Assembly (NCBI RefSeq): GCF_010993705.1
Contig: NZ_WOFO01000005.1
Coordinates: 1 to 64,000 of the forward strand
Direction: 5' to 3'
DNA length: 64,000 nt
From: Cyclobacterium sp. SYSU L10401
GTDB lineage: Bacteria; Bacteroidota; Bacteroidia; Cytophagales; Cyclobacteriaceae
Shown here: positions 20,788 to 54,135 of the stretch, piece by piece
Position numbering within the stretch: position 1 is the first letter of the stretch
How the letters are laid out: each line of letters begins with the position of its first letter
Made by a program: the position numbers and the translations under genes
The notes under the pieces: model-generated
Databases searched by the model: none
What the model was told of the DNA's origin: nothing
Seen by the model: only the letters and a program-made list of their open reading frames with translations

Positions 20788-22130
20788 GATTCGATTTCTT
20801 TTTCAACTAGTTCAATTGCTTCCTTTTCCATAAAGCAGGCATCACTTAGGTTAATCATACATTTTTCTACCTTTTCAGATATTGCTCCTTCTATGTCATG
20901 AAATATTGGAACTAGGAAGCTGGAAATCTGATGATTGTCAATGTGTTTTTGAACGCTACCATATTCAAGAGATTTCAATAGGTTTTGACCTACTTTAGTT
21001 TTCAAAAAACAGTATATGTAGTAGTTCTTGTTGTCATTTTCATTTGGCACAACTCTCACAAGGTTGTTAGTTGCTGATACTCCATCAAGGAATTTTGTAA
21101 TGTAGGATAGATACCCTATTGTACCTGCATCTTGAATGGCGATCCATCCATCGCGAAGAATATAGTTGTCAATATTCTTCATTTTTCGGCTTAAAAAACT
21201 TTGGAAATTTGGGTATTGATTTAATAAATCTGAGCCACTTAGAAATGGAACTCCTTTATCTGGATTGTTTGTTCTTATCCTCTTGAATATGCCAGGAGTG
21301 AAAACTTGATCTGAAAGTTCCGAAATTGACTTTAGTTCAATATTATTCTCGTTTAAAACACGATAAAACCCTTCTATAGAATTTGTATTATATGTAGCCT
21401 CAATTCTTGAATTATGATTAGTTCTTGAGGAGATTTTTGCTTTGTATATAGTTTTGAATTCAATTGAAGGAAGTTTTTCTTCCATCATTTCAATAGCCTC
21501 CCTCAATAACTTATTCGATTCTGCACGAAGGTTTGAAGCTTCAATAATTAGGCTATGGATTTCTTGTTGTTTGGTTTGGGGGAGAATTGGGATTGGGAGA
21601 TCGGCAAGCATTTCTTCTGTAATAAATGGCTGTGCATTTCCACTTATATGTCTTCTTGCAAGATGAAAACCATATTTACTAGCTAAAAAGCTATATAGGT
21701 ATCCGTTTTCAACTTTGCCGTTTGAAATAATTCGAATGACATTGTCAGAGCCTATCGAACCTTCAACCTCTTTTGAAGCAAACGAAAAGGCACCAACGGT
21801 ATTTTGACCAACACGACCAGTTAATATCATTCCCTCTTTCAAAAAACCCTTTCCTTCTTTCCAGAATTTCTTTGAAGCATAATTACAGCTAGACAAGGGG
21901 TTTGAGGATGTTATATCAGTATTTCCCAAGTAGGGTATTCCATTCTCTTTATCAACATAAATTCTTTTACTTCTTCCAGCACAAAAAATATCGCTTGACA
22001 AAGCTCCGAGTGTTTCATGATTCATGGACCTGAAGAAACGATCATAAACCACCCCATCAGTCAAATGAAAGTCTGAATTTAGCCTATAACTATCGAAAAC
22101 ATACTTTGAATTAACTCTTCCTACTCTCAT
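20772..22130 (-). CDS. mad5: HsdS-like specificity subunit; MAD5-like
   Basis: DNA target-recognition subunit for the methylase encoded just upstream. The 452 residues hold two target-recognition domains, each followed by a long helix: the first ends in ITEEMLADLPIPILPQTKQQ and a coiled coil (~190-215), the second in HQISSFLVPIFHDIEGAISE (~415). Both TRDs contain the usual IPYLGNTDI / VPFLSGSDL strand. The two halves would read a split recognition site. It overlaps the methylase by 4 bp and the kinase gene by 16 bp. No HsdR translocase is present, as expected for MADS rather than classic type I restriction. Confidence 0.85.
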   Translation of the reverse strand: MRVGRVNSKYVFDSYRLNSDFHLTDGVVYDRFFRSMNHETLGALSSDIFCAGRSKRIYVDKENGIPYLGNTDITSSNPLSSCNYASKKFWKEGKGFLKEGMILTGRVGQNTVGAFSFASKEVEGSIGSDNVIRIISNGKVENGYLYSFLASKYGFHLARRHISGNAQPFITEEMLADLPIPILPQTKQQEIHSLIIEASNLRAESNKLLREAIEMMEEKLPSIEFKTIYKAKISSRTNHNSRIEATYNTNSIEGFYRVLNENNIELKSISELSDQVFTPGIFKRIRTNNPDKGVPFLSGSDLLNQYPNFQSFLSRKMKNIDNYILRDGWIAIQDAGTIGYLSYITKFLDGVSATNNLVRVVPNENDNKNYYIYCFLKTKVGQNLLKSLEYGSVQKHIDNHQISSFLVPIFHDIEGAISEKVEKCMINLSDACFMEKEAIELVEKEIESWQES

Positions 22131-24145: not shown

Positions 24146-24867
24146 TATGCAATGGATTTTAGTAGTTCGTTAATTTCTTTTCTTTTATCTCGTCTGGAGG
24201 CATAGCGTAACAGCTTACTTTTATTCACATTGTACTTAGCAAATGCCTGTACGTAAAGTTTGTCAATGTCTAAGCCAATAGGCTCTAAAAACTGTTCGTA
24301 CTCAAACCATGCATTTACCAGGATTGCTTCAATGCTGGGGGAAAGATAGTCACCTGATCGTTCCGTTGGTGTCTCAGAGATCAACGCCGTTAAAATGATA
24401 GCTTCATTCTGTGGGATTATGTACCGGACAGTTGTTTCCTTATCGGGTTGCAGATAAACTGGCTTACTGAATGCCCGCATTTCATTGAATAATAGATCCA
24501 AGCCATCCTTATTAAGAGCTAGGAATACCCAGTATTTGGATATGTGATCATTTCCAATATCATTCAACAAGAAGGTATCCCACATCACTATTTCACCTGA
24601 ATAAATGCCTTTTATTCGATTGTAAAGCCGTTTGGATTTTAAGCTTAGTTCAGGAGAAAATTCAGGTTTAAAATCGAAGGTATATAAACCTCTACCAATC
24701 TGATAAATGAGTTTGTCTTTTTTCAGTTGATTGAGCCTCCAGGCTATAGTACTACCAGACAAATCAGGAAAATGCTCTTGAAGGGTATCCGTGATTTCTT
24801 TGGTAGTAAACTCCCGTTTACCTGAAAAATGTATTTTAAGACTATGTGCTAGATCAGTGTTTTTCAT
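24145..24867 (-). CDS. mad1: Winged-helix protein (DUF6577/AbiEi-like), first gene of MADS-like operon; MAD1-like
   Basis: 240 residues. The N-terminal ~70 form a winged helix (FTTKEITDTLQEHFPDL, GSTIAWRLNQLKKDKLIYQI, GRGLYTF with the typical beta wing), and the rest resembles the effector-like domain of DUF6577 and AbiEi-type proteins. It probably represses or tunes its own operon: a good Bacteroidota promoter begins 11 bp upstream of the ATG, and an imperfect palindrome lies just beyond. It is followed directly by the methylase gene. The MAD1 label follows from position and the HTH. Confidence 0.75.
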   Translation of the reverse strand: MKNTDLAHSLKIHFSGKREFTTKEITDTLQEHFPDLSGSTIAWRLNQLKKDKLIYQIGRGLYTFDFKPEFSPELSLKSKRLYNRIKGIYSGEIVMWDTFLLNDIGNDHISKYWVFLALNKDGLDLLFNEMRAFSKPVYLQPDKETTVRYIIPQNEAIILTALISETPTERSGDYLSPSIEAILVNAWFEYEQFLEPIGLDIDKLYVQAFAKYNVNKSKLLRYASRRDKRKEINELLKSIA

Positions 24868-25099: not shown

Positions 25100-25240
25100 T
25101 TCCCCAACCCTCCAAACAATTCCTTAAACATCTTCCCGGGATCCACATTAACGGTCCAGGCTATCAGATAGAATTCGTCTGATCAGAGCTTGGCGAAGTC
25201 ATTGGCTGTTACTGGGTACGTTGCATTTGCCGATCGCATA
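25100..25240 (-). pseudogene. Decayed copy of the 72-aa HTH regulator found intact at 53917-54135
   Basis: The minus strand reads TANDFAKL, a stop, SDEFYLIAWTVNVDPGKMF, then KELFGGLG, against TSNDSAKLRADELYLIALAI and DPGEMFKELFGGLGLKGK in the intact gene. The 5' half with the HTH is missing and one codon has become a stop. Nucleotide identity is high over ~140 bp. It is not expressed as a functional protein. It marks a duplication or recombination event linking this site with the right-hand one 29 kb away. Confidence 0.8.
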
Positions 25241-37543: not shown

Positions 37544-39124
37544 TCACAGCAACGATTTACTTTTTCTAATCCTTTCCCGTATTGCTTTATTGAATATACG
37601 TTTATGATTTCTGATCTGATTTTCGATTGCAGGCTCCTCCATAATTTTTGCCGCTCTTTTGGCGTAGGTCAGGTAATTTCCTTTGAATGGAGGGAATTGG
37701 ATGTCTGATTTAAAATAATAGTAGCCGAAAATATTCTTGACCAATTTTTTGCGCTTTTTGGTTGCGTTGGATTTTTCGAGATTCAGACTGGTATAAATTT
37801 TATACAACTGACGTTTATAGACAGCGACCCCCGACCTGTCGATTTCGTCCTTCTGGAATTTCTTTGTGGCTATCTTTACCTTCTTTTTAACTGACGTTTT
37901 CATCCGTCGGTAAAATTTTGAAAGATTCTTTGATGCAATCAAGGTCTTGAACCCATAAAAATCAAATCCCAGGTAATTCAAAGGGGTGGTATCGACCAAA
38001 TCATGTTCTTTCTTTAAAAATCCCTTTATAATCGATTTTCCTGTTGTATCGGTGCATTTAATAAATCGAAATATCTCGGTTTTATCAGTGCTGATTGAAA
38101 CCTTGCTTTCTAAAATCAACTTTGTAATATACTTATTTGCCCATTCTTCTTCATCCACTGGAACTACAATCAAGATATCATCCGAATACCTGCGATAATA
38201 CCCATTTCTTTTTTTGACGATTTCCTTGACAACGTTACGATCAAATTCCAAAAGGTATAAATTCGCCAATGTGGCAGAAATAGGTAGACCTTGGGGAATG
38301 CCCTTTCGGGTTTTATCTGCTTTAGAGTAAAATGGATTTTTGTAGACCTTTAACTGTCCCGACTTTATAGCCTGGCGAAACTCCGCCGGATTTTCAAAAA
38401 AACATTCAGTTCCCTTTTTTCGGTTTTCAGCAAGCTTTTTTTCATCAAATCCTGCCTTCCTTCCATTATTGGATTGAAATATTCTTAAGTCATCCTTTAA
38501 TATGTAGGAGAAATTGGTGCATGCTCGGAATACCTGATAGTGGTCCCTAGGAAGTTCCTTTTGTTCTAATAGATTGGACCAGGAGGCCTTCAGAAGTTTA
38601 TGATTAATTCCGCTGAAAAATTTCTCGATATCAAATTTTAGGACTGCGCACTGTTTATTCTTTTCTGCTTTGGTTTTTATGTGTTCAAATGCTTCGTGTG
38701 CAAAGTGGATTGTGCTTTTGTTCTTGCCCGGACTGTTCGGGTCAGGAATTTGCCTGTATGCGGTAATACATTCTGATACCTCTGGTTCTGTCGCTAATAC
38801 ACCTTCATACAAAACCTTAAGTTTGTCAGCGTAGTATGCAAATATTAAACTGTCCAAATGCGATGCAAAATGAAGGGGTCTTATTTTCGCATTGCTTTTT
38901 CCGGTTGAGGCAGTATGGCATCTTTTTTCTGTTACCGGATCCTTTTTGTATCTTCTTTCTTTAATGTTGGCATGTATAAGGGGGAAAAAGGAATGGTGCG
39001 CTACGTATCTGGGGTTGCTGATTTTTTTAAAAACATAGTCTCCTTCCGAATCCAAATTTAATTTTGGACTTAAATGAAGGTAACCCCTGTTTCTAAACCA
39101 TTTTTCTCTTATCCCAATCCTCAT
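37544..39124 (-). CDS. Solitary reverse transcriptase, candidate defence RT
   Basis: 526-aa RNA-directed DNA polymerase. RT motifs in order: RPLHFASHLDSLIFAYYADK (~80-100), AVLKFDIEKFFSGI (~165), GIPQGLPISATLANLYLLEF (~280-300), YYRRYSDDILIVVP (~308, catalytic YSDD), and LNYLGFDFYGFKTL (~400). There is no maturase X domain and no endonuclease domain, so it is not a group II intron RT; the C-terminal ~110 residues are Lys/Arg-rich. Such stand-alone RTs with non-coding flanks belong to the unknown-group/DRT defence families (for instance DRT2 or DRT9); I cannot assign a group from sequence alone. Location in a defence island supports the role. Confidence 0.85.
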   Translation of the reverse strand: MRIGIREKWFRNRGYLHLSPKLNLDSEGDYVFKKISNPRYVAHHSFFPLIHANIKERRYKKDPVTEKRCHTASTGKSNAKIRPLHFASHLDSLIFAYYADKLKVLYEGVLATEPEVSECITAYRQIPDPNSPGKNKSTIHFAHEAFEHIKTKAEKNKQCAVLKFDIEKFFSGINHKLLKASWSNLLEQKELPRDHYQVFRACTNFSYILKDDLRIFQSNNGRKAGFDEKKLAENRKKGTECFFENPAEFRQAIKSGQLKVYKNPFYSKADKTRKGIPQGLPISATLANLYLLEFDRNVVKEIVKKRNGYYRRYSDDILIVVPVDEEEWANKYITKLILESKVSISTDKTEIFRFIKCTDTTGKSIIKGFLKKEHDLVDTTPLNYLGFDFYGFKTLIASKNLSKFYRRMKTSVKKKVKIATKKFQKDEIDRSGVAVYKRQLYKIYTSLNLEKSNATKKRKKLVKNIFGYYYFKSDIQFPPFKGNYLTYAKRAAKIMEEPAIENQIRNHKRIFNKAIRERIRKSKSLL

Positions 39125-39580: not shown

Positions 39581-40720
39581 ATGGAAAATTTTGTACTTGG
39601 AGATATAGTAGCATTTAAATCTCATCCCTACTCATCAATTCAAAATTCAGTTTTTGAAACAGTGATAGCAGGAGAATCATTATTAACGCCACCGCTGATG
39701 GTTATAGGGGAAATTTTGATGCACAACAGAGGAAGCTATGATCCTAAAGATGGAGAGGAGATACACAAGAAGGGTTCCAAAAGTTGTAAATGCTTTTGGT
39801 TCAACCATGACCAATACCAATTTGAAGACGCCTGGATTTCAGAAAAACAGCTTAAACTTATTCAAAAATCCGAAGTCGTAAGTCAGGAGGATTTACTTTA
39901 TTCAAACGTGATTTTTAAAACTGCGTCGCTTGAAACAGGAAAGAAGAAATCATCACTTTCCTCCAAAAATGGAGTTCAAACGAGGGTAGATAATCATATT
40001 TTGTCGTTTGTTGCGCCTACAATGCAAGTCATCAGCGTAAAAAAGGCTGAGGAAAAAGACCCAAAATATGATGAAAAGACTGGAAAGCAGGCTCGCATTA
40101 CCGGTAAATACTTAGCCAAATGCAAATGGTTTAATCCAAAGGGTCATAAATTTTCTGAAAAATTCATGCCGCTAGCCGTATTAGAGCGTGTTCCTTTTTA
40201 CGGTTCTGAAATATTGGAAAAAATTTCTGAACTGGTCAAAGAACAAACCACGCTACACATAATAAAATCCGGGGATAAAATTCCCATTTTACTTCAAGTC
40301 AGCTCTTCCTTTTGTCTAAATGGTAAATATTACCTGCAAGGATTCGATTTGGTTAGAAATAAACCTGATACTTTTTTGGTTGAACCCAATATTGATTTTC
40401 CAGAAGCCATCAGTCCTATTGTTGAGTCTTGGCCAAAATTTGATAGCCAAAATGAAATTATCTCAATAGATGAGTTTTTAAATGCTCACTTTGGAGATTA
40501 TAAATACTTTAAAATTAGATATGCCTCTTTTCATGGGGAAGTAACAAGCAGGACAATTGAAGCAAAATCCATTTCAGATTATGAAGTTTTTAAAAATCCA
40601 GGTGACACAAGTAAACAAAGCATCAAACATTTTGTAGGACATTGTTTACTTCGAAATGCTGAAAGACGCTTTAGATTAGAGAGAATCCAATCGATTCAAG
40701 TGCTTAATATCAAAAAATAA
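39581..40720 (+). CDS. Protein with two YodC-like modules and a WYL-like C-terminus
   Basis: 379 residues. Two similar N-terminal modules each end in a Cys-x-Trp-Phe strand: VLGDIVAFKS...KSCKCFWFNHDQYQF (1-~95) and SFVAPTMQVISVKK...LAKCKWFNPKGHKF (~125-195); they resemble the small YodC/DUF2158 fold. The C-terminal ~90 residues (KIRYASFHGEVTSRTIEAKS, then HCLLRNAERRFRLERIQSIQ) match a WYL-type ligand-binding domain, common in regulators of defence loci. No HTH is visible. It is transcribed away from the RT gene, sharing its upstream region. Confidence 0.65.
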   Translation: MENFVLGDIVAFKSHPYSSIQNSVFETVIAGESLLTPPLMVIGEILMHNRGSYDPKDGEEIHKKGSKSCKCFWFNHDQYQFEDAWISEKQLKLIQKSEVVSQEDLLYSNVIFKTASLETGKKKSSLSSKNGVQTRVDNHILSFVAPTMQVISVKKAEEKDPKYDEKTGKQARITGKYLAKCKWFNPKGHKFSEKFMPLAVLERVPFYGSEILEKISELVKEQTTLHIIKSGDKIPILLQVSSSFCLNGKYYLQGFDLVRNKPDTFLVEPNIDFPEAISPIVESWPKFDSQNEIISIDEFLNAHFGDYKYFKIRYASFHGEVTSRTIEAKSISDYEVFKNPGDTSKQSIKHFVGHCLLRNAERRFRLERIQSIQVLNIKK

Positions 40721-41720: not shown

Positions 41721-43448
41721 TCATACCAACCTCCCTCTATCCGTGCTTATCCTAAACCAAAAATTTCCGATTTCAATCTTGGATACGCCGATCAATTGGG
41801 CTTTGCCAATTACTTTTTCTCCATTTGCTTTAAGACCCGAATTAGAGTCCAGGTCATAAATCCAGGTATCATTTTTTTGATTGATAATTGCGGCATGACG
41901 CCTGCTAATCATGTTCCCTCCAGGCAAGAAGATGTCATTGTAATAATAACCATCTCTTCCAATTTTAATTATTGACTGAAAATAGGACTTGTTGATCAAT
42001 TCGGGAATATTTGAATCCACAATAAATAATTCGGAAGCAAGCACCTTTTCAAACCTACTTTCCATGAAAAGGAGCTTTGATTTGATATGTGGTTTTCCTT
42101 TATAGGTAGAGCTTTGTACAGATTCTGGTTCTGTACAAACCTCCTTGTTGTATTTTGCAAAAGGATTATTATTAGTTGAAAAATTCATTTTTGCCATTTG
42201 GTTTCTACTTACCAAAATTAGGATCTCGCATAAAAGTTGGTTATTTGTCAAAAAAGCCGTTTTGGGAAAGATCCTCAAAAGTTCCTTGGTAAGTTGAATT
42301 CCAGCTTCATAGCGACCAGTCAAATAAAAGCATTTCAACAAGAGGTTCTGTGCGGTCAAATCATTTGGATTCCGGTGCAGATGGTCTGAAATAAGGGAAA
42401 TGGCTTTTGGGAAATTCTTTAACTCCAATTGAATCTCACCCAACTGTCTTTGAATATTCAATCTGGGGTTGATATTCAACGCTCTTTCAAATGCTTTCCC
42501 AGCGAGATCAATCCTATTTCTGTTTAGGTATAAATTACCAGTAACTTCCAAAATATTGAGGTTAAGGGGAAAATGTTTTAAGGCATATTCCACAACTCCC
42601 TGGGCTTTGCTCCATTTTTTCAATCTTATCAGTCTCCGGATTTTTTCAGCCAAAATCCCCGCATCAAGCGTTTCCTTTTTGAATACGAAGGGCACTTGTT
42701 TTGCCTCAATGGCTTCAGCAAAATCTGCCATCGATTGAAATCTCAATTCGGGCTGGATATGGATCGCTTTAAGTAAAATATCCTGTTGCCATAAGGGAAG
42801 GTGAGAAATAGGAAAATCAAGCGATTGATGTATTTCAATAATTTCAGGAAGCATCATACCCCAAAAGGGGTTATGTCCAAGCAATGCCTCCAATAGAGTC
42901 ACTCCTAGACCATAAACATCTTCTCTTCCATCCACATTTGAGTTTTCCTGCCGCATTATTGCTCCTGGGCTCATATAGGATAGTGTACCACCAAACTTAT
43001 TCACCATACCAAAATCTGATATTTTAGGCATTTCGTTTTCTGAAAAAAGGATATTGGGAGGTTTAATGTCCTTATGAATCATTCCACTACTATGAATTTT
43101 TTCCAGACTAAGTGCTAATTCTTTGATCCAATCAAATATTTTTTCAGGTTGGATTTTTTTGTTCCTGATTCGGTCATGTAGGCTTCCTCCTGAACAAAAT
43201 TCCATTACAAAGAATAGCTGTGAGTTTGCCCAAAAGTGATGGTGATAGGTGACAATATTTGGTAATTTTAGTTTAGCTACCTGCTGGATTTCATGAATGA
43301 TGTCCGACTGATCCGGATTTTCGGTTTTTAATTTTTTTATGGCCCGCAATTCTCCGGTAATATTTTCCTTTACCAAAAACACCTGTCCAAAACCTCCCTG
43401 ACCTAGGTTCTGGACAAATTTGTATTTTTCGTCAAAGATTTTTTCCAT
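41721..43448 (-). CDS. Ser/Thr protein kinase with TPR region and FHA domain
   Basis: 575 residues. Kinase domain 1-~255: LGQGGFGQVFLV (P-loop), AIKKLK (ATP Lys), MIHKDIKPPNIL (catalytic loop), ISDFGMV (Mg Asp), YMSPGAI. Residues ~270-400 are TPR-like helical pairs (GKAFERALNINPRLNIQRQL). The C-terminal ~95 residues are an FHA domain: IIKIGRDGYYYNDIFL then MISRRHAAII and DLDSNSGLKANG, a phosphothreonine reader. No membrane span. It is a single gene 362 bp beyond the DUF3644 operon on the same strand, and may control partners by phosphorylation and FHA docking. Confidence 0.9.
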   Translation of the reverse strand: MEKIFDEKYKFVQNLGQGGFGQVFLVKENITGELRAIKKLKTENPDQSDIIHEIQQVAKLKLPNIVTYHHHFWANSQLFFVMEFCSGGSLHDRIRNKKIQPEKIFDWIKELALSLEKIHSSGMIHKDIKPPNILFSENEMPKISDFGMVNKFGGTLSYMSPGAIMRQENSNVDGREDVYGLGVTLLEALLGHNPFWGMMLPEIIEIHQSLDFPISHLPLWQQDILLKAIHIQPELRFQSMADFAEAIEAKQVPFVFKKETLDAGILAEKIRRLIRLKKWSKAQGVVEYALKHFPLNLNILEVTGNLYLNRNRIDLAGKAFERALNINPRLNIQRQLGEIQLELKNFPKAISLISDHLHRNPNDLTAQNLLLKCFYLTGRYEAGIQLTKELLRIFPKTAFLTNNQLLCEILILVSRNQMAKMNFSTNNNPFAKYNKEVCTEPESVQSSTYKGKPHIKSKLLFMESRFEKVLASELFIVDSNIPELINKSYFQSIIKIGRDGYYYNDIFLPGGNMISRRHAAIINQKNDTWIYDLDSNSGLKANGEKVIGKAQLIGVSKIEIGNFWFRISTDRGRLV

Positions 43449-43810: not shown

Positions 43811-44800
43811 TTAATTATTCTTCTTTTTTGTATAATGCTTATCAAATTCCTTCCATATATTACTGCTGTAATATGCCTTCTTCAGTGACCTCGGGTTATC
43901 AGGATCTAACTTTCTTTCGTGGTGTAGCTTATCATCTATTTTGATTTTTTTCATCAGGATATTAAAGTCATGATTTCGTTTAAAATTAGAATACCGCTCT
44001 TTTGCTTTCAACCTAACTTCATCATAGGTTAAAGGAAATTTTTTCCTGATATCTTCTTCTTTTACATTTATTGAAACCCCCTTAGGATCATACTTAAAAC
44101 CTATTCCGTCAAAACTATTGCTCTTAGAGAAATTGATATCTATAGAAATCGCAATGTCAAATTCCTCGTCTTCTTTATTTTGGTTATCAATTTTATTTTT
44201 AACAAAGGCTAGGTAATTCTTTACCTCATCAGTAACCAAACCATCCGATACTAGTTTAGAATCCACATATGCCAAAGGCATTAAGTAAAAATTGTAAACT
44301 GACAAATCTACTTCCAGATCCCATTTTTTGATGATGTGCAAGTAGTTCTTGATAGTGGCAAATCCCAACTCCTGAATTTCTTTGGAGATAAATTCCTCAT
44401 TATGAAAGTGAATGGCATTATCTCTCAATTCCACCAACCCCTCAATACTTGCCAAGTGATTTTCAGTTAACTTAAAACCCTTTTTTTCCAGTTTTTTGAT
44501 AACATCAAATAGACTGATCGTCATCGGATTTTGGCTGCGACTTAGTTTTGGTTTCTTTCTGGTTTTATGTGGAGTTTTGTCTTTTTTTGGAACAGGTTCC
44601 ATTACATATAGACTTTTCATCTGATAAGAGGAAGATTTTAATAATTGCGCTTTGAAAAGTAGTTCTATCGCATTGGTAGCCAAAATGGCAAAAGTCTCCT
44701 CCCGATAAGAAAAATTCGGCTTATTGTAAATCTCAATAGCCGATAGCATAGAGTTAACAGATTTATCCAGTAAGCTGCGATAGGTTTGATTGATTCTCAT
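43811..44800 (-). CDS. DUF3644-domain protein
   Basis: 329 residues. The DUF3644 signature is clear in the N-terminal half: ATNAIELLFKAQLLKS (~43), SLFDVIKKLEKKGFKL (~95) and GLVELRDNAIHFHNEEF (~122), an arrangement of helices with conserved R-N...H-F recalling HEPN-type domains. The C-terminal half is charged and helical. It overlaps the EVE gene by 4 bp and is the last gene of the five-gene operon. A HEPN-type RNase effector role is a reasonable but unproven guess. Confidence 0.82.
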   Translation of the reverse strand: MRINQTYRSLLDKSVNSMLSAIEIYNKPNFSYREETFAILATNAIELLFKAQLLKSSSYQMKSLYVMEPVPKKDKTPHKTRKKPKLSRSQNPMTISLFDVIKKLEKKGFKLTENHLASIEGLVELRDNAIHFHNEEFISKEIQELGFATIKNYLHIIKKWDLEVDLSVYNFYLMPLAYVDSKLVSDGLVTDEVKNYLAFVKNKIDNQNKEDEEFDIAISIDINFSKSNSFDGIGFKYDPKGVSINVKEEDIRKKFPLTYDEVRLKAKERYSNFKRNHDFNILMKKIKIDDKLHHERKLDPDNPRSLKKAYYSSNIWKEFDKHYTKKKNN

Positions 44801-45204
44801 GCTTTAGCCAAAATTAAAATCATTTCAAACTCCTCTCTATTTAATCTCATCACTGCCAGCCGTTGCTGCTTGATCAATCCTATTTCAGACAGCTTAGGCT
44901 CACATTTTATTTTCTTTAGACTAACAGGATTCTCCAAACTTCTAACAGGTTCAAAGGTTACGGATATCCACTTGCTATCTGTTGTAGTAGGGTCTTGATG
45001 TGCCTCTTCAATTACTTTCATCATTCCCAATACCTCATGTCCTTCCTGACTATGGTAAAAAAGTGCTTGATCTCCTAAGCTCATCAAGCTAAGGTTATTC
45101 TTCGCCTGTGGATTTCTTACGGAATAGATTTCAAATTTTCCATTCTTCAAGACATCCCGCCAGGAATAGCGAAAAGGAGCAAATTTGACCAACCAATAGT
45201 TCAT
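44797..45204 (-). CDS. EVE-domain protein, likely reader of modified bases
   Basis: From the ATG at 45204 the protein has 135 residues, a complete EVE domain: MNYWLVKFAPFRYSW, FEIYSVRNPQAKNNL, MSLGDQALFYHSQEGHEVLG and KWISVTFEPVRSL. EVE domains (PUA superfamily) bind modified bases and often sit with McrB- or HEPN-type effectors. It overlaps the PLD gene upstream (2 bp short of it from this start; the ATG at 45213 overlaps by 8 bp) and the DUF3644 gene downstream by 4 bp. A broken copy of its 5' end lies at 43674-43751. Confidence 0.88.
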   Translation of the reverse strand: MNYWLVKFAPFRYSWRDVLKNGKFEIYSVRNPQAKNNLSLMSLGDQALFYHSQEGHEVLGMMKVIEEAHQDPTTTDSKWISVTFEPVRSLENPVSLKKIKCEPKLSEIGLIKQQRLAVMRLNREEFEMILILAKA

Positions 45205-45205
45205 A

Positions 45206-46477
45206 CTATTCAAATGACTTATCCTTCATTAATACATATAGCGGATAGAGTTTTTCAAAATCATCCAAAACCGTATCTACAATATAATCATCTTTCAATC
45301 TTTTATCTTCAGGACTGATTTTATTTCCAATAATGAAATAATCAGACTTCCAATTATCTCTTTTTACAAAATCATGAAGCGCTTCTGAATCCTTAAATTC
45401 ATTTAAAAATTTTTCCTCCTCACCAATTCTTATCCAATAATCGTTACCTAATTGACGGATTAATTGAAAAAACTTCTCCTTGTAACCTTTATTATTCATC
45501 TGTGATTGAAAATAAGCCCGATCCTCAATACTATCCCCCGATTTCCCAAACCTTAGCCAGACACCAACATCATCAAAATGAATAATAACCTGAAGTCGGG
45601 CAAAAAACAACGGAGTTTTATCACCATATTTTTTGATTTCACTTTTTGATCTTCCATAGTGAATCCAAAGTGAATTCAGTTCATTTGAATTATGGAAGCT
45701 TAACTCTGTACTGGCTACTATATCATTTTCTAAATAATGTTTATCCAACTTCCAGGGTTTGGATTGTATTTCAGGCCAAAGTCTATCGTTAAGGTTAAAT
45801 AACCTTTTCCTTACACTTTTTCTTAACTCATTTACAATTGGATCATTTTCCTTAGATGAATTTTCCGGAGAAAATGTTAGGTGATGCTCTTTCGAAAAAT
45901 ATTGCCCTTCAAAATTTATAGATTCAATGTTAAACTTACCTTTTAAAATATCCTGCAATAGTTTGATCTCTTTTTTATCCCTTTGCTTCTCCATAGCCTT
46001 TCTTTCAAAAAGTGATTGAAATATTGGCAAACGCTCCTTGGAAACTAAATACCCCTTGGCAAACATCTGATCAAACCAATTCTTGTATTCGATAAATGAA
46101 TCCTCATCATCGAAAGAATGAAACAGTTCTTCATTTCTAAACCAACCTCCTTGAGTAAAATTGCCAGAACCAATGAAGCCTCGAACAAAACCCTTACCTT
46201 TCAACAGGTAAAGTTTTGGATGAAAAAAGTTATCCGCATAAAGTCTAAAAGACCAGTTTCCTTCTTCATGACCATCAATTAATTTTTCAAAAGCGGATAA
46301 TTGACTGGGTAGGTGAATACCGATCAAAAAATTGAGTTTTGCTTTTGGATTCACATTTCGCAACAAAAGCTCTAAAGCAGGGAAACTCACGCTTGCAGAT
46401 GCCAAAAACACCTCGTCAGCGTTGGAAAGGAGCTTTTCTCCTCTTAAAAGTGAAATACTTAGCTTTTTATTTAACAT
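45206..46477 (-). CDS. Phospholipase D-family protein (putative nuclease)
   Basis: 423 residues. One PLD catalytic motif is visible: FFHPKLYLLKGKGFVRG and GFIGSGNFTQGGWFRNEEL (~105-135), giving His-x-Lys and a Gly-Ser-x-Asn motif of the type found in nuclease members that dimerise. It has no signal peptide, so it acts in the cytoplasm, presumably on DNA. It overlaps the methylase by 11 bp, in the middle of the operon. The C-terminal ~250 residues are unrecognised. PLD-type nucleases serve as cleavage subunits in other defence systems such as DISARM. Confidence 0.82.
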   Translation of the reverse strand: MLNKKLSISLLRGEKLLSNADEVFLASASVSFPALELLLRNVNPKAKLNFLIGIHLPSQLSAFEKLIDGHEEGNWSFRLYADNFFHPKLYLLKGKGFVRGFIGSGNFTQGGWFRNEELFHSFDDEDSFIEYKNWFDQMFAKGYLVSKERLPIFQSLFERKAMEKQRDKKEIKLLQDILKGKFNIESINFEGQYFSKEHHLTFSPENSSKENDPIVNELRKSVRKRLFNLNDRLWPEIQSKPWKLDKHYLENDIVASTELSFHNSNELNSLWIHYGRSKSEIKKYGDKTPLFFARLQVIIHFDDVGVWLRFGKSGDSIEDRAYFQSQMNNKGYKEKFFQLIRQLGNDYWIRIGEEEKFLNEFKDSEALHDFVKRDNWKSDYFIIGNKISPEDKRLKDDYIVDTVLDDFEKLYPLYVLMKDKSFE

Positions 46478-49400
46478 GCCATTTTTTTATCTCATACAAC
46501 TCCAAATAATCATCCGACTTCCCTAACTTCCGCAAATTGGCCTTCTGGGCAGCAGACAGCTTGGGATACCTGCGGGCAAACCAATCTTCAACTGCTTGAA
46601 TATCCTCTGGATTCAAACCATAGGCTTTATAGACCAATTTGTCTATTTCTATTTGCTCGTGGCTGGCATAGTCATATCGAGAAAAGTCTTTCTGTTGGTA
46701 TATGATTTCTTTAACAAATTCTTTAATTTGATCTAAAACCTTTTGGTTACCCAGATTCAAAACAAAAGCAGCAATATCATCTCCACTAGTATCTACAGTA
46801 TGCTTTATGAAATTTTTAAATATGAACTTAGCGAATTTTGAAGACAAAATTCCAAGTAATTTTTCATCTTCAACCCCTTCACAAAATAAACCCGACCCCT
46901 TCGCCTCAAAAACCCCCTTACTATTTAAGCGAAATGTTGGTGCGTATATACCTGATATAGAAAAGGTTAAGCCTTTTTTGAAAAAATATTTCTCATTTTT
47001 CCAAGCTACTCCTGGGTTATTTTTCATATCCAAAATAGCACCTTTAGCCCAGTTGATAAAAAATTGAGTAGGCACATAATAATTAGGTAACCATCCATCA
47101 TCCGAGTCAGACTCTCCACCTTTTTCAAAGGGCACAAAACACTCAGTTAAATTATTCCAATCCTTATCAAGACCATTTATTTTCTCATTTCTAGATAAGG
47201 TAGATAATTTATTAGACGGGAAAACCATCCAGGCTTCTATTTTATCATAAGATCCTTTTGTCCCTAACTTAACTCTAACATATTTCTTATTATTTCCTGT
47301 AGAAATCCCGTGAGGTGCGGCACCTATATCTCCAAGTTTTACCAGTTCTATATTTTTTTCATTCAACTTTAATTTACGGACATTAACCTGCTTTCCAGCA
47401 ATCTCTTTTAATTGACTTTTAGGTGAAATTAATTTGTCATTCCCATCATTCATCAAAGCAAAGAGTTTCGGACTTGCTACAAAAAATGGTAAGTTGCTAT
47501 TCGTCCTAATTAAAGATTGAGGATAATAATAAATAGCATATTCTTCGTTGGATACTTGCAAATTCATATCTGACCCTTCAAAATCTGCTCCACGAGTTTG
47601 GCCCAATACCTCCACAAAGTGCTCGTAATTGTCATGTATAGAAATATTCGTCATATCGGCCATTAGGCAGATATGTTTATCGTCAATTTCCTTTTTGTTA
47701 TTCCGCTCGGCCACCATCACAGCGGTATTGACTGTAGCACGAAAAGTATCCGGGTGTACCCGGATCATTTTGTGCACATAGTTCTGCATAAGCTTCTTGC
47801 GTAATTTCAAGTGGCTTTTGATGGTCATAAAGGTGTCGCTGACGATATAAGCTAATACTCCACCATGCTTGAGCGGAGTAAGCTTATTGGCATCATTTAG
47901 GAATCTTGCAATAAATGCTCCGTATGGATCCTTGCTTTCTATATCCAAGGCTGATCGCACATCCTCGCTGATTTTGACACCTCCATATGGAGGATTTCCA
48001 ATCACACAATCAAAACCATCATCCTTTAGCTCGGGATAGAAAAAGTCCATATTAAAGAATGGCGCGGCAAGTGTGCTGTGGGTAAACCATTCTTTAAGTA
48101 AAACAGGATTCTGACCTGGTATTGATTTTCCTGTTACTTGTTTGGCAAAGAAGGGAAATGCCTGATCTAATACATCTATAATTTCATTAGTAATTTTTTC
48201 ACGTTCTTCGTGACTAATATCCGGCTGGTAATATCGTGCCCTTGCATCTGTGAGCCTATCTATGGCATCATTAGAGAATAGATCAACTTGAATATTTTTT
48301 AGACTATCCGCACAAATGATTTTGGTCTCGATATTTGGCATTGGTGTTATACCATTATGTGTATTTTGGTCAATAAGCAAGGATATAAAAAATCGAAGTT
48401 TGGTAATCTGAACTGCTAGTGGCTGAATATCTAACCCATATATACTGTCCCGAATTATTCCAAGTTTTCTACTGTAATCATCCAAATGCTTTTTAAGTAC
48501 TTTTTCGAATTGTACCCTTTGTGCAGCATCCACATTTTTTAACTTTAGCTTTAGCCAGCGCTCATTATCAGGGTCTACTAGTTTCAGAATATCAACCATC
48601 CTATGCAACATAACCATGGGAAAGGCACCCGATCCACAAGCAGGGTCAAGTACCTTATATTTGTCCAAAGCTTCTACTATAGCATCACAGAATTTGGTTT
48701 CTGAGGTATCCACCTCCTGCTTATAAATCAGATTAGAAATGGACTGTTTAGCATTTTCTATTTTTCTTACGTTTTCTACCAAATACTTAGTCAGATACAG
48801 GAAAAGGCTATCGTTTACCATTTCTAATATCACCTTTCTAGGTGTGTAGTAACTACCTGTAAGTTTACGGATACTTTTCTTGATGCTGTCTTCCAAGTTA
48901 GGATCTAATTCTGCCAATAGATTTTCGAATACCAATCCAAGCATTTCTGGATCCAAAGCTACATCCTCTTCATATGGTGTATTTTCATCCAAAGTGAATT
49001 TGTATGATTTCAAGATCCCATTAAGTCCTTTGTGCTCTACCTTTTGCACCTCTTCCCGGGCAGTTTTACCTCTTCCAACATGTACCTTTTCTTCAGTTTC
49101 AATTCCATAAAATAGGAAGTTAGGGATCTGAATGGCGCCATCCTCAATACTCTCTTTAGCATTGTCTTCTTCCAATTTGTCAAAGATCCCTCCATTGAGA
49201 TATGGGATGTCTGTCAACCAATTCAGGGCAAAATCAGAATGAAGGTAATTGGTCCACTTAAAGTCTTTTAAAGATTTCTTATCAGCTTGATTGAGCGCGT
49301 TAAAAAAAATGTTTTGAAGGATGCCCCTATAGTAAGAATTGCTCTTCAAAAAATTCTTTTCACTAATGTCATGAACCAGCGGATATTTGTTTCCTTCCCA

Positions 49401-50237
49401 ATCTTCAAGCTCTAGTAATTCTTTTCTGATCAAGCCTTTTTCTTTGACAAACCAACAAAAGAGGGTTCTTGAAAGCAACCTTACCAAAAAGTTTTTCCCA
49501 TTCTCCTTTTTGTCTAAATAGTTTGGGCAGAAAGGTAAATTGATATTTTCTAAAGCATAATAAAACCAATTTTGAAGATCAGCATAGAATTGGTCATTTA
49601 GCGTCTGAAGGGCAAAAACAGATTGCCAATATTGATAGAGTTTTTCAAAGGAATTAATTTTAGCCTCATCTATTTTTAATCCATCAAAACCCTTCCCATC
49701 ACCTAGAATAATTTTTAAATGGGCAGCATGCGTGTTTTCAATAAATACGTCCTTAAGCATGACCACTTTCCCAACTTTCTCCCCCTCATTTTTTTGATGG
49801 ACAAATGGTAGCCTTTCCGAATTTGCAAATGCCAAGCACCTATTATACCTGAAAACCACAGCCACAGGAACTCCCAAGCTTCTCCTGTTAAGCCATCTGG
49901 TAATTTCAGAGAGTCTGCTTCTGCTTGGGTTATCTATATTCAATTCTACCCCAAAAACTAGAATGGAATCGTATTTTCCTCTTTCAATCTCCTTTTCTGT
50001 TTCTTCAAGGCTGGAATTTTCCCCCTCCTGTCGAAAAGTTTTATCAGAAAGTTTTCCCGCAAAATATATCGATTCTAAATCGCTAAGTTTTTCAGAATCC
50101 TTATCCTTAAAAGCTGCTTTTGTGGGGATAGGTTTTTCGGTGGGTGTTTGAAGGTTCAAATTCAGGGATTCTTCAAAAAACTGGCGGACTCCCTTTCCAA
50201 GGTCAATATGCTGATCAAAATAAGTGTTTAGGTACAT
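46467..50237 (-). CDS. Eco57I-type adenine methyltransferase (type IIG/ISP-like)
   Basis: 1256 residues. SAM-binding motif VLDPACGSGAFPMVMLHRM (~528-546), GSYYTPRKVILEMVNDSL just before it, then IYGLDIQPLAVQITKLRFFI (~605), and the catalytic DCVIGNPPYGGVK (~745). The ~500-residue N-terminal part has the layout of Eco57I-family proteins (YLNGGIFDKLEED). The C-terminal ~350 residues with KLGDIGAAPHGISTGNNK resemble a target-recognition domain. I could not find a convincing PD-(D/E)xK nuclease. It starts 8 bp after the helicase stop and overlaps the PLD gene by 11 bp. It probably marks self DNA. Confidence 0.87.
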   Translation of the reverse strand: MYLNTYFDQHIDLGKGVRQFFEESLNLNLQTPTEKPIPTKAAFKDKDSEKLSDLESIYFAGKLSDKTFRQEGENSSLEETEKEIERGKYDSILVFGVELNIDNPSRSRLSEITRWLNRRSLGVPVAVVFRYNRCLAFANSERLPFVHQKNEGEKVGKVVMLKDVFIENTHAAHLKIILGDGKGFDGLKIDEAKINSFEKLYQYWQSVFALQTLNDQFYADLQNWFYYALENINLPFCPNYLDKKENGKNFLVRLLSRTLFCWFVKEKGLIRKELLELEDWEGNKYPLVHDISEKNFLKSNSYYRGILQNIFFNALNQADKKSLKDFKWTNYLHSDFALNWLTDIPYLNGGIFDKLEEDNAKESIEDGAIQIPNFLFYGIETEEKVHVGRGKTAREEVQKVEHKGLNGILKSYKFTLDENTPYEEDVALDPEMLGLVFENLLAELDPNLEDSIKKSIRKLTGSYYTPRKVILEMVNDSLFLYLTKYLVENVRKIENAKQSISNLIYKQEVDTSETKFCDAIVEALDKYKVLDPACGSGAFPMVMLHRMVDILKLVDPDNERWLKLKLKNVDAAQRVQFEKVLKKHLDDYSRKLGIIRDSIYGLDIQPLAVQITKLRFFISLLIDQNTHNGITPMPNIETKIICADSLKNIQVDLFSNDAIDRLTDARARYYQPDISHEEREKITNEIIDVLDQAFPFFAKQVTGKSIPGQNPVLLKEWFTHSTLAAPFFNMDFFYPELKDDGFDCVIGNPPYGGVKISEDVRSALDIESKDPYGAFIARFLNDANKLTPLKHGGVLAYIVSDTFMTIKSHLKLRKKLMQNYVHKMIRVHPDTFRATVNTAVMVAERNNKKEIDDKHICLMADMTNISIHDNYEHFVEVLGQTRGADFEGSDMNLQVSNEEYAIYYYPQSLIRTNSNLPFFVASPKLFALMNDGNDKLISPKSQLKEIAGKQVNVRKLKLNEKNIELVKLGDIGAAPHGISTGNNKKYVRVKLGTKGSYDKIEAWMVFPSNKLSTLSRNEKINGLDKDWNNLTECFVPFEKGGESDSDDGWLPNYYVPTQFFINWAKGAILDMKNNPGVAWKNEKYFFKKGLTFSISGIYAPTFRLNSKGVFEAKGSGLFCEGVEDEKLLGILSSKFAKFIFKNFIKHTVDTSGDDIAAFVLNLGNQKVLDQIKEFVKEIIYQQKDFSRYDYASHEQIEIDKLVYKAYGLNPEDIQAVEDWFARRYPKLSAAQKANLRKLGKSDDYLELYEIKKWHVK

Positions 50238-50245
50238 TTTTTTCG

Positions 50246-53200
50246 TTAATTATTTTGTACTGCTATCCAGCAGATTAAGTCAAAATTCTCAGCTTGGTAT
50301 TTTTCATCCAAAAAAGCTTGTTCTTCTTCATCATTTGAGCTGCTTTTAGTAAAGGTTATATCTCCGGCAAAAATATCATCCATCGTGTTTTCTATTTCCC
50401 TACCTGCCTGAATGTCCAACCAGTGCAAGAGGCTTTTCGAATAGTGCTTTAGGACCAATTCATCCCCGGCATCCAATCCTTTAGGTAGTTGCCTTTTGCT
50501 TAATTTTTGAGATTGGAGTACTGCAAGGATTTCTTTTGGATTTTTGAATACTACTTGTTTTTCATTATCCAGATACATCAGGTGTAATTCCTTATACTGA
50601 TGGTCTACAACACCTGAAGGTTTGGCTGGATAACCCATCAATGCTACCATTCCCTCAGGGATGGCCTGATGAAATAAATCCGGATTTGCTTTGAAACCGG
50701 TAAAAACGCCGTTTGGAATTGCTTCCAGTTCTTTCTTTTTGCTTTGCAACAACTGGAATAACTCCTGACGGAAATTCTCCATGGATAAGTCTGCAAAAGA
50801 AAAATTCTTTACATCATCTCCCTCTATTTCTTCAATTTTTTCAGCCATCTGCCGCAGCATTTTTGCTTTCTGAAATTCTTTGGTCATTTCACTGCTGGCT
50901 TTTTCACCAATCCTTTCATTGAAGCCCTTGGGCACTTCCGAACCAGCGAGTTTCATAGCGGCCACTCTGACTTCTACCCTGTGTTGGAGATTGAGGTAAG
51001 TATTTATGTCATCAGTTGGCCAGAAATTGACGGCTGAAATACCATCCTGCATATTGGGGGACCCAATTCTATCAATACGTCCAAAGCGCTGCACAATTCG
51101 AACTGGATTCCAGTGTATGTCGTAATTCACCACTAAATCCGCATCCTGTAAATTTTGTCCTTCGGAAAGACAGTCGGTAGTGATCAGAATGTCGATAGGA
51201 TTCTGGATTTCTTCATCTACCGAGGGTTTGTGTGATTTGATGTAATCCTTCCAAGCTAAAAAGTTCTCCCAATCACTCACTGCTTCATTTTTGTAAAATT
51301 CAGGCCACTCCCTTTCCATATAAAGTTTGGTAAATGGGGCAAATCGTTCCAAAATTGGTTCGAATTCTCCATATGGGATCTCTTCTCCTGAAACAAAACT
51401 TTTCCCTCCTGTCACTACAGCCAGTTGCTGAAATCCACGTTTCTTCAATTCATCAAAAAGATACATTGCCGTGTCCTTGAAAGTAGTAAATACAATCAGT
51501 TTTTTATTTCCACCGTTTCTTTGAGCTTTTTGCTTTTCCCTGATAATTTTGATAAGCTCTTTCAATTTATTGTCTTTGCTTTGGTCTCCGGTTTCGTCTT
51601 GAATTTCATCTTCCAGCCTTTTCAGGTTTTCCTTAAGCAATTTGAGCTTATTGACATCCGACTCTAAGTCTTCAATAAAATATTCCAGATTACCCTGTGC
51701 ATCAATGTCCTGAAGTCGGATTTCTCTTTTACCAAGGGTAAACTCTTCCTCTTCCTCCATTTCCTCTTCCGTAATCCCAAGATCACCATCCAATCGAACC
51801 AGAGCGTCCGTTTTGATTTTAGTTGCCTTATAGTTTAAGCTAACATCAAGTGCATTTTGATGATGGGCCAAAATCCTCTCCAAAGTAATCTGAAAGGATT
51901 TCCAAGAAGATTCAAACCGCTTGATCATCAGAATATACATCATTTTGACCAAAAAGCTATCCTGAATCCTCGCATCTTCAATAGCGCTCACTCTAAAAGT
52001 GGAAGGTATGGCATAAATACTTGGTTTATAACCAGCCAAGACATCTGGCAGGGCCTCTTCCAAAGATTCAAAGCTATTGATATCTCCAATATTTTTAGGA
52101 CTGCAATACTTATTGACTGCACCGTTGTTTTTAGGAAAATCAAGCCCATCGATTTTTATCAAGTCACGGGTTCTTGAAACCACCATTGTATCTGTTAACC
52201 TTATAAAACTATCCCCTAATCTGGAAATAAGGTGATCAATATTTTCATCAGGATTATTGACCCAAGAAATAAACTCTCTATCTGATTCCCTGAACAAAGC
52301 ATCTAGGCTTGGCACACTAAGTGATTCCTTAAATCCATTGTTTTTCCCTTTTACAAATAGTTTGAATTGATTTTTTATATCTGCCAGTTTTGTATTAATG
52401 GGAGTGGCAGAAAGCAAAAGCACTTTGATATCAATATTTTTTTTGATAATCTCCTCCATCAAAAATTGATACCTGGCTGAAGAATCATTTCTTAAGTTAT
52501 GTGACTCATCTATAACCAGCAGTTTCGAACCATCACTTTGGAAATAGTCTTCTATTTTGAGTCCGTCATCTTTTTTTTCTAGACGATCATCTTGCAGATC
52601 AGTATGCCATCGGATGGTATAATCCAACTTATCAACCTCAAATCTGGACATTTTTTTCCTTTGATACTTAGTCCAGTTTTGGTGTAATTTCTTTGGGCAG
52701 AGTAAGATAACTTCGTGGTTTCTCATTTGAAAAAATTTCATTACAGCTAACGCCTGCCAGGTTTTCCCCAAACCAACAGCATCGGCTAAAATGGCCCCAT
52801 TATAGTTTCGGAGCATTTTGATAAGACTTAAGACTCCTTTTTGCTGAAATGGATAAAGGGTTTTGAAAACGGCTGTATTTTCAAGACTCCCTATTTGGGC
52901 CCTGAATTCAGGATCTTGGTCAAATTTTAAAAAATCATTTTTAAACAGTTCGAATAAGACCTTGTAATAAATCTGTTCCGGGGTATATTTTTTATGATAA
53001 TCCTTAATCAATCCTATTAGATAATCTTTGAAAAGAACCTTTTTGTCATCTACTATGATGTGATCTTTTGCATAACTATGGTCCCACAGGCTATTAAACC
53101 AATCCTGCATTTCTTTGTAATCACTACTCCCTCCGAAATCGGCTGTATTTAATTCTATGTTGGATGAATACTTTAGCCCCATCCCTGCCTCTGTCATATT

Positions 53201-53617
53201 TGAACTTCCCACGATATGAAAATTTTTCTGGGGATCATTGGAAGCCTCTTGAAATAAATATGCCTTTGCATGGCAGAAATTAGGTTTGAGGGTTTTTATT
53301 TTAACCTTGTCTTGTTGTAAAAATTTAATGGCTAAATCAGAATCTTTTAAAGAATTTACTCCGTTTTTTATGCTAAGATTATCTGAAAGTAACTGGTAAA
53401 CTTTTTCCTTGGTGCTTTCAGTGGTTACCAGATCCCCAATAAGCAAATTGTATTCATCAACGAATTCATCAAAATGCTCTTGAAACCTCGCCAGTCCGGA
53501 AGGTGAAAAATATCCAGTAACAGCATTGACCATTCCTTTATTCTTAATGTATTTTTTAAAAAACTCAAAAAGTTTTGTTGGATGGTTTTTTTGTATTGAT
53601 TTATTGTCTATTAGCAT
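50246..53617 (-). CDS. SNF2-type helicase with N-terminal PLD domain
   Basis: 1123 residues. The N-terminal ~190 residues form a PLD module: KPNFCHAKAYLF (His-x-Lys, ~112) and FHIVGSSNMTEAGMGL. The SNF2 motor follows: ADAVGLGKTWQALAV (motif I, ~280), LLVIDESHNLRNDSS (DESH, ~368), VLLLSATPINTKL (~398), ITTDCLSEGQNLQDADLVVN (~820) and VRIVQRFGRIDRIGS (motif VI, ~845). An acidic stretch lies near ~630. It is the first gene of the operon and should translocate on double-stranded DNA. Fused PLD plus SNF2 recalls the parts of DISARM (DrmD and DrmC), but the DrmA and DrmB partners are missing. Confidence 0.88.
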   Translation of the reverse strand: MLIDNKSIQKNHPTKLFEFFKKYIKNKGMVNAVTGYFSPSGLARFQEHFDEFVDEYNLLIGDLVTTESTKEKVYQLLSDNLSIKNGVNSLKDSDLAIKFLQQDKVKIKTLKPNFCHAKAYLFQEASNDPQKNFHIVGSSNMTEAGMGLKYSSNIELNTADFGGSSDYKEMQDWFNSLWDHSYAKDHIIVDDKKVLFKDYLIGLIKDYHKKYTPEQIYYKVLFELFKNDFLKFDQDPEFRAQIGSLENTAVFKTLYPFQQKGVLSLIKMLRNYNGAILADAVGLGKTWQALAVMKFFQMRNHEVILLCPKKLHQNWTKYQRKKMSRFEVDKLDYTIRWHTDLQDDRLEKKDDGLKIEDYFQSDGSKLLVIDESHNLRNDSSARYQFLMEEIIKKNIDIKVLLLSATPINTKLADIKNQFKLFVKGKNNGFKESLSVPSLDALFRESDREFISWVNNPDENIDHLISRLGDSFIRLTDTMVVSRTRDLIKIDGLDFPKNNGAVNKYCSPKNIGDINSFESLEEALPDVLAGYKPSIYAIPSTFRVSAIEDARIQDSFLVKMMYILMIKRFESSWKSFQITLERILAHHQNALDVSLNYKATKIKTDALVRLDGDLGITEEEMEEEEEFTLGKREIRLQDIDAQGNLEYFIEDLESDVNKLKLLKENLKRLEDEIQDETGDQSKDNKLKELIKIIREKQKAQRNGGNKKLIVFTTFKDTAMYLFDELKKRGFQQLAVVTGGKSFVSGEEIPYGEFEPILERFAPFTKLYMEREWPEFYKNEAVSDWENFLAWKDYIKSHKPSVDEEIQNPIDILITTDCLSEGQNLQDADLVVNYDIHWNPVRIVQRFGRIDRIGSPNMQDGISAVNFWPTDDINTYLNLQHRVEVRVAAMKLAGSEVPKGFNERIGEKASSEMTKEFQKAKMLRQMAEKIEEIEGDDVKNFSFADLSMENFRQELFQLLQSKKKELEAIPNGVFTGFKANPDLFHQAIPEGMVALMGYPAKPSGVVDHQYKELHLMYLDNEKQVVFKNPKEILAVLQSQKLSKRQLPKGLDAGDELVLKHYSKSLLHWLDIQAGREIENTMDDIFAGDITFTKSSSNDEEEQAFLDEKYQAENFDLICWIAVQNN

Positions 53618-53916: not shown

Positions 53917-54135
53917 TCATTTCCCCTTCAACCCCAACCCCCCAAACAACTCCTTAAACATCTCTCCCGGATCCGCATTGATGGCCAGGGCGATGAGGTA
54001 GAGTTCGTCGGCTCGGAGTTTGGCGGAGTCGTTGGAAGTTAGCTGGGTGAGCCGGGATTTGCTGATGCCCGTGCGCCTTGAAACTTCCGCCTTGTTTACC
54101 GTCCTTTTGGCTAAATACAAGCCCAAATCTGTCAT
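53917..54135 (-). CDS. Small XRE/Cro-type HTH regulator
   Basis: 72 residues forming one HTH: LGLYLAKRTVNKAEVSRRTG then ISKSRLTQLTSNDSAKL, followed by a C-terminal extension DPGEMFKELFGGLGLKGK. It probably binds a palindromic operator as a dimer. A decayed copy is at 25100-25240. It lies upstream of the helicase operon on the same strand with a 299-bp gap. It may regulate that operon or the divergent small-peptide cluster. Confidence 0.8.
   Translation of the reverse strand: MTDLGLYLAKRTVNKAEVSRRTGISKSRLTQLTSNDSAKLRADELYLIALAINADPGEMFKELFGGLGLKGK

Follow-up and report, generated by a model that had tools for sequence, protein, structure and literature searches.

A putative two-gene restriction-modification core with a DUF4391-like domain and an exchangeable cargo slot in a Cyclobacterium operon

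Type I and type ISP restriction-modification (R-M) enzymes bring together a helicase, a nuclease of the PD-(D/E)XK kind, an N6-methylase and an exchangeable specificity. Additional genes can travel with R-M systems, the precedent for such 'cargo' being PrrC beside EcoprrI (PMC3874165). Class I DISARM and ARMADA pair an SNF2-type helicase with a PglX-like methylase (PMC12458937). The locus described here, at positions 43811-53617 on the minus strand of a 64-kilobase (kb) stretch of Cyclobacterium DNA (the whole of which is termed 'the window'), likewise encodes a helicase (HEL) and a methylase (MTA), which are followed by a PLD-type nuclease (PLD), an EVE-domain protein (EVE) and a DUF3644 protein. 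On the strength of predictions made from sequence, it is read here, with a probability of about 0.6, as a two-gene ATP-dependent R-M core (HEL plus MTA) joined to a three-gene cargo cassette. ATP-dependent R-M is well known as a kind; no description of the HEL/MTA arrangement, or of its link to DUF4391, was found in the literature searched, which covers few subscription journals.

HEL (50246..53617, minus strand; 1123 amino acids) carries an N-terminal PLD nuclease module (HxK...GSxN...E) fused to an SNF2 helicase (Pfam: PLDc_2, SNF2-rel_dom and Helicase_C) and corresponds to the PADLOC entry C3a139 'HKD+Snf2' (246.7 bits). MTA (46467..50237, minus strand; 1256 amino acids) consists of a DUF4391-like N-terminal domain (the 'N-domain'), a PglX/type IIG-like N6-adenine methylase and a variable C-terminal region (Pfam: Eco57I and N6_Mtase); its PADLOC matches are to type IIG, PglX and DrmMI, and it displays the motifs GSYYTP, DPACGSG and NPPY. 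The catalytic motifs are intact in both proteins, and their relatives were compared across a set of 27 loci. Not in that set are two loci whose helicase is split among several frames (L039 and L054), two whose methylase is truncated by the end of a contig (L045 and L169) and two that lack a helicase (L173 and L178); shortened methylases are still included, namely those of L043 and L172 (both truncated by a contig end), L057 and L180. The HxK, GSxN, Walker A and DExH motifs are kept in all 27 aligned HELs and motif I (DPAxGSG) in all 27 MTAs, while NPPY is found in 26 of the 27. It is lacking in a shortened Planktothrix protein, which is encoded in a pair on a plasmid (L057, 13998-19580), has 711 amino acids and is perhaps broken. 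A type IIG nuclease in the N-terminal part of MTA, considered in view of the matching type IIG models, was rejected: no conserved catalytic set was seen there, and only R106 among the first 199 residues is at least 90% conserved (27 rows).

Co-occurrence was searched from each of the five proteins in turn, and the loci fetched for inspection number 199, each at least 3 kb long and with overlapping or duplicate stretches included; a minority of the 103 plasmid records from the HEL search are among them. HEL matches in 26 of 395 Bacteroidota genomes at E<=1e-60 (the window's own included), and this phylum search gave 28 loci outside the window. The 26 of these available as longer regions (those on the short contigs G177:C126 and G213:C253 are the other two, and the short stretch of G213, L029, carries DUF4391) comprise nine with MTA, 14 with a stand-alone DUF4391 gene, one with neither (L038) and two that end at a contig edge (L046 and L055). 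Thus, MTA or DUF4391 adjoins HEL at 23 of the 24 fetched loci from the phylum search whose flank could be assessed. Approached from the other side, MTA matches in 19 of 395 class genomes at E<=1e-30 (again including the window's own); HEL adjoins at 16 of the 18 other MTA loci that were fetched (a contig-end piece, G872:C67, was left aside), six of those having small genes in between, and the remaining two are L173, which has no HEL, and L178, which is cut off. Relatives of the pair also reside on plasmids of Planktothrix, Parabacteroides, Lactiplantibacillus and the haloarchaeon Natrinema. The nearest relative found, and the single one obtained by scanning genome contigs for exact peptide patterns, is a locus of Lunatimonas lonarensis (L007), with a HEL 80% identical to that of the window and a Schlafen gene in the position of the cargo.

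An earlier note on this DNA had taken the five genes together as an undescribed defence operon whose members might recur as one system. Their packing bears out the operon: all five minus-strand open reading frames are in place, with a gap of 8 base pairs (bp) between HEL and MTA followed by overlaps of 11, 8 and 4 bp (an alternative EVE start, an ATG three codons in, lies 1 nucleotide past the PLD stop), and both promoter-like sites (25, as against a shuffled mean of 36.3, using a sigma-70 consensus that may not suit the phylum) and terminator-like sites (three, as against 7.6) are fewer than in shuffled sequence. Tight spacing and overlapping frames also speak for an obligate five-gene system in which all five proteins form one machine, as does the fact that both of the other phylum genomes with DUF3644 (G106, at L182/L203, and G137, at L183) hold a HEL as well (L131 and L040, respectively). 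Those helicases, however, lie at a distance of approximately 500 kb or on a different contig, and such a count (two of two, against a background of about 25 in 394) is too small to tell whether the two genes are linked or whether these genomes are rich in defence genes generally. Among the 199 fetched loci, PLD, EVE or DUF3644 stood together with HEL or MTA, or with one another, in only four, all from the window's own genome. PLD was found in 43 of 390 family genomes (the window's included), at 44 places, and the 32 regions fetched around matches other than the window's own contained no EVE, DUF3644, HEL or MTA. DUF3644 occurs in four of 390 family genomes (including the window's own, the other three being partial matches) and in three of 365 phylum genomes (its own included), and on two fetched plasmids it lies apart from the HEL/MTA pair, as it does in the other relatives inspected. 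The nearest relative, moreover, has Schlafen in the slot. A five-protein machine is accordingly very improbable; of the earlier proposal, the recurrence of the first two genes and the defence-like nature of the operon stand, and the joint recurrence of all five was not seen among the fetched loci. The conserved unit seems to be HEL together with a DUF4391-like domain, which in the window forms part of the methylase.

The similarity to DUF4391 resides in the first ~200 residues of MTA (residues 85-145 of the window protein lie within the profile match). When a profile of the MTA N-domain (25 sequences, with L043 and L172 left out) was aligned with a DUF4391 profile, hhalign gave 87.4% with a score of 46.7, and it gave 89.5% in the reverse direction and 79.9% with separate alignments; the controls reached a maximum of 27.9 for other segments of MTA and HEL and of 17.4 for 30 column shuffles, and a reversed segment scored 16.0. 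With the Pfam DUF4391 model and a limit of E<=1, matches are obtained for six of 22 N-domains of MTA, the strongest having an E value of 1.7e-7; that of L043, at 3.5e-6, reaches 27.5 bits where the cut-off is 29.9. A custom DUF4391 model run against 6061 open reading frames (many loci being represented twice) returned 36 matches at E<=0.01, and these are, by locus and length, either MTA proteins (in one case, L016, a cut-off start) or DUF4391 genes located at HEL loci. The one article in the literature searched that mentions DUF4391 is, judging from its title and abstract, about the host range of a saccharibacterium.

At the other HEL loci the helicase is followed, directly or past one small gene, by a DUF4391 protein of 221-252 amino acids, and PF14335 matches all 12 of the stand-alone proteins tested. 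Behind it, genes for N6_N4_Mtase and ResIII/RE_endonuc proteins are found by Pfam at L049, L053 and L059, and similar, type III-like genes by annotation at L058 and L060. In a helicase tree of 39 rows, the 12 helicases with stand-alone DUF4391 form one group (100% support in the SH-like approximate likelihood ratio test, SH-aLRT) that adjoins the MTA-type helicases of L040-L044 and L165, although the deep part of the tree is unsure because its branches are long; three of those adjoining loci (L043, L044 and L165) have MTAs that match the custom DUF4391 model. Helicases of this family are found beside a DUF4391-like domain in both arrangements, with the window's MTA qualifying through its relatives. 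With confidence a little better than even, it is suggested that DUF4391 might serve PLD-SNF2 restriction helicases generally as a docking adaptor, either free beside type III-like genes or fused to Eco57I-type methylases, and that the fused form may represent an unnamed, phylum-crossing class of two-gene R-M system whose target is changed by swapping the methylase C-terminus and whose back-up killing is changed by swapping the cargo in fixed slots.

The manner in which the two core proteins diverge is consistent with docking of this sort. Identity in HEL tracks identity in the MTA N-domain (Spearman rho 0.84) far more closely than it tracks residues 201-400 (0.43), the methylase core (0.38) or the C-terminus (0.21); these values, from 276 pairs among 24 loci (the 27-locus set minus L043, L172 and L057), are descriptive, because the pairs are not independent. 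The loci L177 and L179 share 94% identity in HEL and 92% in the N-domain, and 23% in the C-terminus; between the window and L007 the corresponding figures are 80%, 61% and 12%. Co-divergence of helicase and N-domain, combined with a variable C-terminus, is the pattern expected if target recognition were exchanged on a constant docking part, and the MTA C-terminus, which appears to have been largely exchanged between loci, is read as a putative target recognition region. The pair L179/L180 (HEL 95%, C-terminus 16%) was not chosen as the lead example: the L180 methylase, which has 1005 amino acids with a frame of 181 amino acids overlapping its end, is possibly broken, being short and so overlapped.

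Next to or inside the pair, genes of defence or toxin type are present at 18 of the 27 loci if ABC/SMC-like ATPases are counted, and at 13 otherwise (L041 and L042 end too early to be judged). The window carries PLD-EVE-DUF3644 in this slot, and L007 carries Schlafen, which is also found upstream in L168 and L061 (the last by annotation). Genes for DUF1016/YhcG lie between the pair genes at L040, L043, L172 and L181 (and at L180, in two frames, as judged by eye), and KilA-N genes do so at L171 and L174. ABC/SMC-like ATPases accompany L044, L165, L168, L176 and L177 (and, by similarity, L179 and L180), McrBC accompanies L167, GmrSD with OLD accompanies L175, and SIR2 with HerA accompanies L174. 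Modification-dependent restriction is found in the slot at two other loci (McrBC and GmrSD), and should EVE act in the way proposed below, the window would add one more. Three facts are compatible with the view that the cargo genes are unconnected passengers, which use the same promoter as the core and are functionally unrelated to it: near relatives differ in their cargo, DUF3644 and PLD are also found elsewhere away from the core, and PADLOC gives DUF3644 its own candidate label. This view is considered unlikely, though far from negligible: DUF1016, KilA-N and ABC/SMC-like cargo recur at the slot, in several cases inside the pair, PLDs of the active type favour R-M surroundings, and PrrC provides a known precedent (PMC3874165).

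The first cargo protein of the window, PLD (45206..46477, minus strand; 423 amino acids), is a predicted stand-alone nuclease that matches RE_NgoFVII (4.5e-8) and PLDc_2 in Pfam. It belongs to a clade of eight among 33 aligned homologues that display HPK...GSxN, and four of the seven others in that clade adjoin type I R-M genes (L094, L100, L115 and L117). In the other 25 homologues HxN replaces HxK and the N of GSxN is missing; they form a PLD-like clade within the family (for example L095, L104 and L122). EVE (44797..45213, minus strand; 138 amino acids; PF01878, 1.6e-34), a putative PUA-like reader of modified bases, is the sole EVE match in the genome, and its closest solved relatives are 1zce and 2gbs (Atu2648 and Rpa0253).

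The third, DUF3644 (43811..44800, minus strand; 329 amino acids; PF12358, 1.4e-37), is a candidate toxin of the HEPN-family RNase type. It matches PADLOC PDC-S19 at 406.6 bits, which we take to be a one-gene defence candidate and of which no mention was found in the literature searched. An R-x4-H motif (residues 126-131 in the window), within the Rx4-6H pattern of HEPN proteins, is present in six of six aligned rows; in a structural model of low confidence (mean predicted local distance difference test score, pLDDT, of 49) it is located at the end of a helix (113-131), as described for HEPN proteins. Nine of the 14 best chains found with Foldseek for that model are titled HEPN or MntA-HpeT (best E 0.88, none <=0.001), and four more (7bxo and 5yep) are presumably HEPN toxin-antitoxin entries. 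DUF3644 is listed as HEPN, and an overlapping HEPN family is described in R-M operons, in PMC3710099; together with the conserved motif, this agrees with the suggestion of the earlier note that the protein may have a HEPN-like fold.

The two-gene core with its cargo might operate as follows. The variable C-terminus of MTA would recognize a DNA sequence, in which an adenine of host DNA would be methylated, and HEL would dock on MTA by way of the DUF4391-like N-domain. At unmethylated sites HEL would be activated, its SNF2 motor pumping DNA and its N-terminal PLD module cutting it. The cargo would form a back-up layer to this core: EVE may recognize modified bases in phages able to evade ordinary restriction, and guide the second PLD nuclease, and DUF3644, as a HEPN-type enzyme, may cut RNA and stop the cell if the core is blocked, much as PrrC does beside EcoprrI.

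Several observations weigh against this interpretation. The window's own MTA is matched neither by the Pfam DUF4391 model (E<=0.1) nor by the custom model (E<=0.01), and is counted as DUF4391-like because it aligns with relatives that do match; the predicted structure of its N-domain, made from two-row alignments, is unusable (mean pLDDT 40.1). Comparison of C-terminal parts by blastp found similarity in five of seven pairs (26-33% identity over 117-254 residues), which implies that part of the MTA C-terminus is a conserved framework; for the window and L007, no similarity was found in this way. The 4.7 kb that follow HEL at L038 contain no MTA, and L173 has MTA but no HEL. (On the 7.8 kb contig of L038, G194:C8, the match to HEL starts at window residue 208, a KilA-N gene comes next and a methylase is absent; this may be a degraded or a different arrangement.) Seven of the 27 loci have no recognized cargo despite sufficient flank (L037, L164, L166, L170, L057, L062 and L063), so the cargo is dispensable. 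The window's EVE is closest to stand-alone EVE proteins, which leaves its putative role against phage modification a tentative one, and the match of DUF3644 to a HEPN fold has an E value of about 1.

The operon is situated within a variable block: at the homologous place, the same-genus genome G458 has no sequence matching the window from approximately 26.9 to 53.9 kb. The right edge of this block, at 53920-53924, is common to the five same-genus genomes for which the right flank was fetched (out of 11 others searched) and lies 300 bp before HEL, at the end of a gene for a small XRE-type helix-turn-helix protein (53917..54135, minus strand; 72 amino acids; assigned by reading the sequence alone) that belongs to the conserved flank upstream of HEL. 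Counted from this edge, a PbeA-like gene (1117 bits) lies at about 3 kb in G635 and a type I restriction enzyme at about 10 kb in G511. An imperfect direct repeat (119 columns, 81.5%; window 25102-25217 and 53931-54048) flanks the block, its copy near 54 kb being, as read from the sequence, the end of the small helix-turn-helix gene. Downstream of the operon, at a distance of 362 bp, is a kinase-TPR-FHA gene (41721-43448, minus strand) whose kinase part is mad6/PD-T4-6-like. Further along are a DRT2-like reverse transcriptase (37544-39124, minus strand; 442 bits to Drt2 in PADLOC, and 351.6 against an NCBIfam cut-off of 390) and, adjoining it, an RTasWYL-YodC protein (39581-40720, plus strand; 357 bits). 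To the left of the block is a MADS-like operon (9343-24867, minus strand) with mad8 (as the C-terminal part of a protein of 1804 amino acids), mad7, a PglW/mad6-like kinase, a specificity subunit, a methylase and an AbiEi-like gene; in G458 its specificity gene is the divergent one (150 bits, as against 1416 and 3355 for two neighbours).

If correct, the interpretation of this locus as a core with cargo would replace a one-off, five-gene curiosity with a rule: the DUF4391 partner domain stays with a helicase family that spans several bacterial phyla and an archaeon, and what is exchanged is the methylase, the target specificity and the killing cargo. It would provide DUF4391 with a testable function; L177 and L179, with nearly identical helicases and dissimilar methylase C-termini (94% and 23% identity), offer a natural pair for the mapping of specificity, and the cargo slot offers a natural series of interchangeable back-up effectors.

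Of the systems named at the outset, DISARM and ARMADA bear the closest resemblance, sharing with this locus the pair of an SNF2-type helicase and a PglX-like methylase (PMC12458937) and, in the case of DISARM, a PLD nuclease nearby, as DrmC (PMC9142583). The earlier note had described such a pair without DrmA and DrmB, and this description holds: the DUF1998/MZB domain (PF09369), detected in eight of 14 control genomes, has no match in the whole genome, and DrmB is not among the matches listed when the submitted window proteins were scanned with PADLOC. It might still be argued that the locus is a degenerate or minimal DISARM, ARMADA or BREX system reduced to its helicase-methylase pair, since that pair is common to ARMADA and class I DISARM (PMC12458937), and HEL scores 139.7 bits against DrmD and MTA 101.9 bits against BREX-1 PglX. 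Both scores, however, fall far under the curated cut-offs (610 and 500 bits, respectively). PglZ matches are located only on contig C9, the window being on C17 (BrxC was not searched for); DUF499 (PF04465; positive in one of 14 control genomes), around which the BREX-related Hma systems are centred, was not found in the genome; DUF3780 has no match in the nine window proteins scanned; and for ARMADA the indication is indirect, no MZB/DUF1998 domain having been found in the genome (the YprA-family helicase part was not searched for). The pair also recurs with a signature of its own, consisting of the PLD fusion and the DUF4391-like domain (ARMADA methylases were not compared for the latter). 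Such a reduced locus is hence regarded as improbable, and the two-gene core with exchangeable cargo remains the preferred interpretation.

The differences from the described systems can then be put in terms of that core. DISARM and ARMADA have DrmA/DrmB or YprA, whereas a PLD-fused helicase and a DUF4391-like N-domain are found here. The DUF499-centred type 2 systems (PMC12839542) include an HKD-helicase, as this locus does, and differ in the DUF499 on which they are centred. EVE-PLDc fusion proteins, which are predicted to act in modification-dependent restriction (PMC7641849), resemble the side-by-side PLD and EVE genes of the window, although in the latter the two are separate proteins inside the operon of another system. 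Type I and type ISP systems share with this locus a helicase, a nuclease, an N6-methylase, exchangeable specificity and embedded extra genes such as PrrC (PMC3874165); here the labour would be split between a nuclease-helicase and a protein combining docking domain, methylase and specificity, and the nuclease is of the PLD rather than the PD-(D/E)XK type. The 'HKD+Snf2' plasmid loci L058-L060 (C3a139), finally, share the helicase family, the PLD-SNF2 layout and the DUF4391 partner itself, which there is a separate gene followed by methylase and restriction genes and here is the N-domain of an Eco57I-type methylase.

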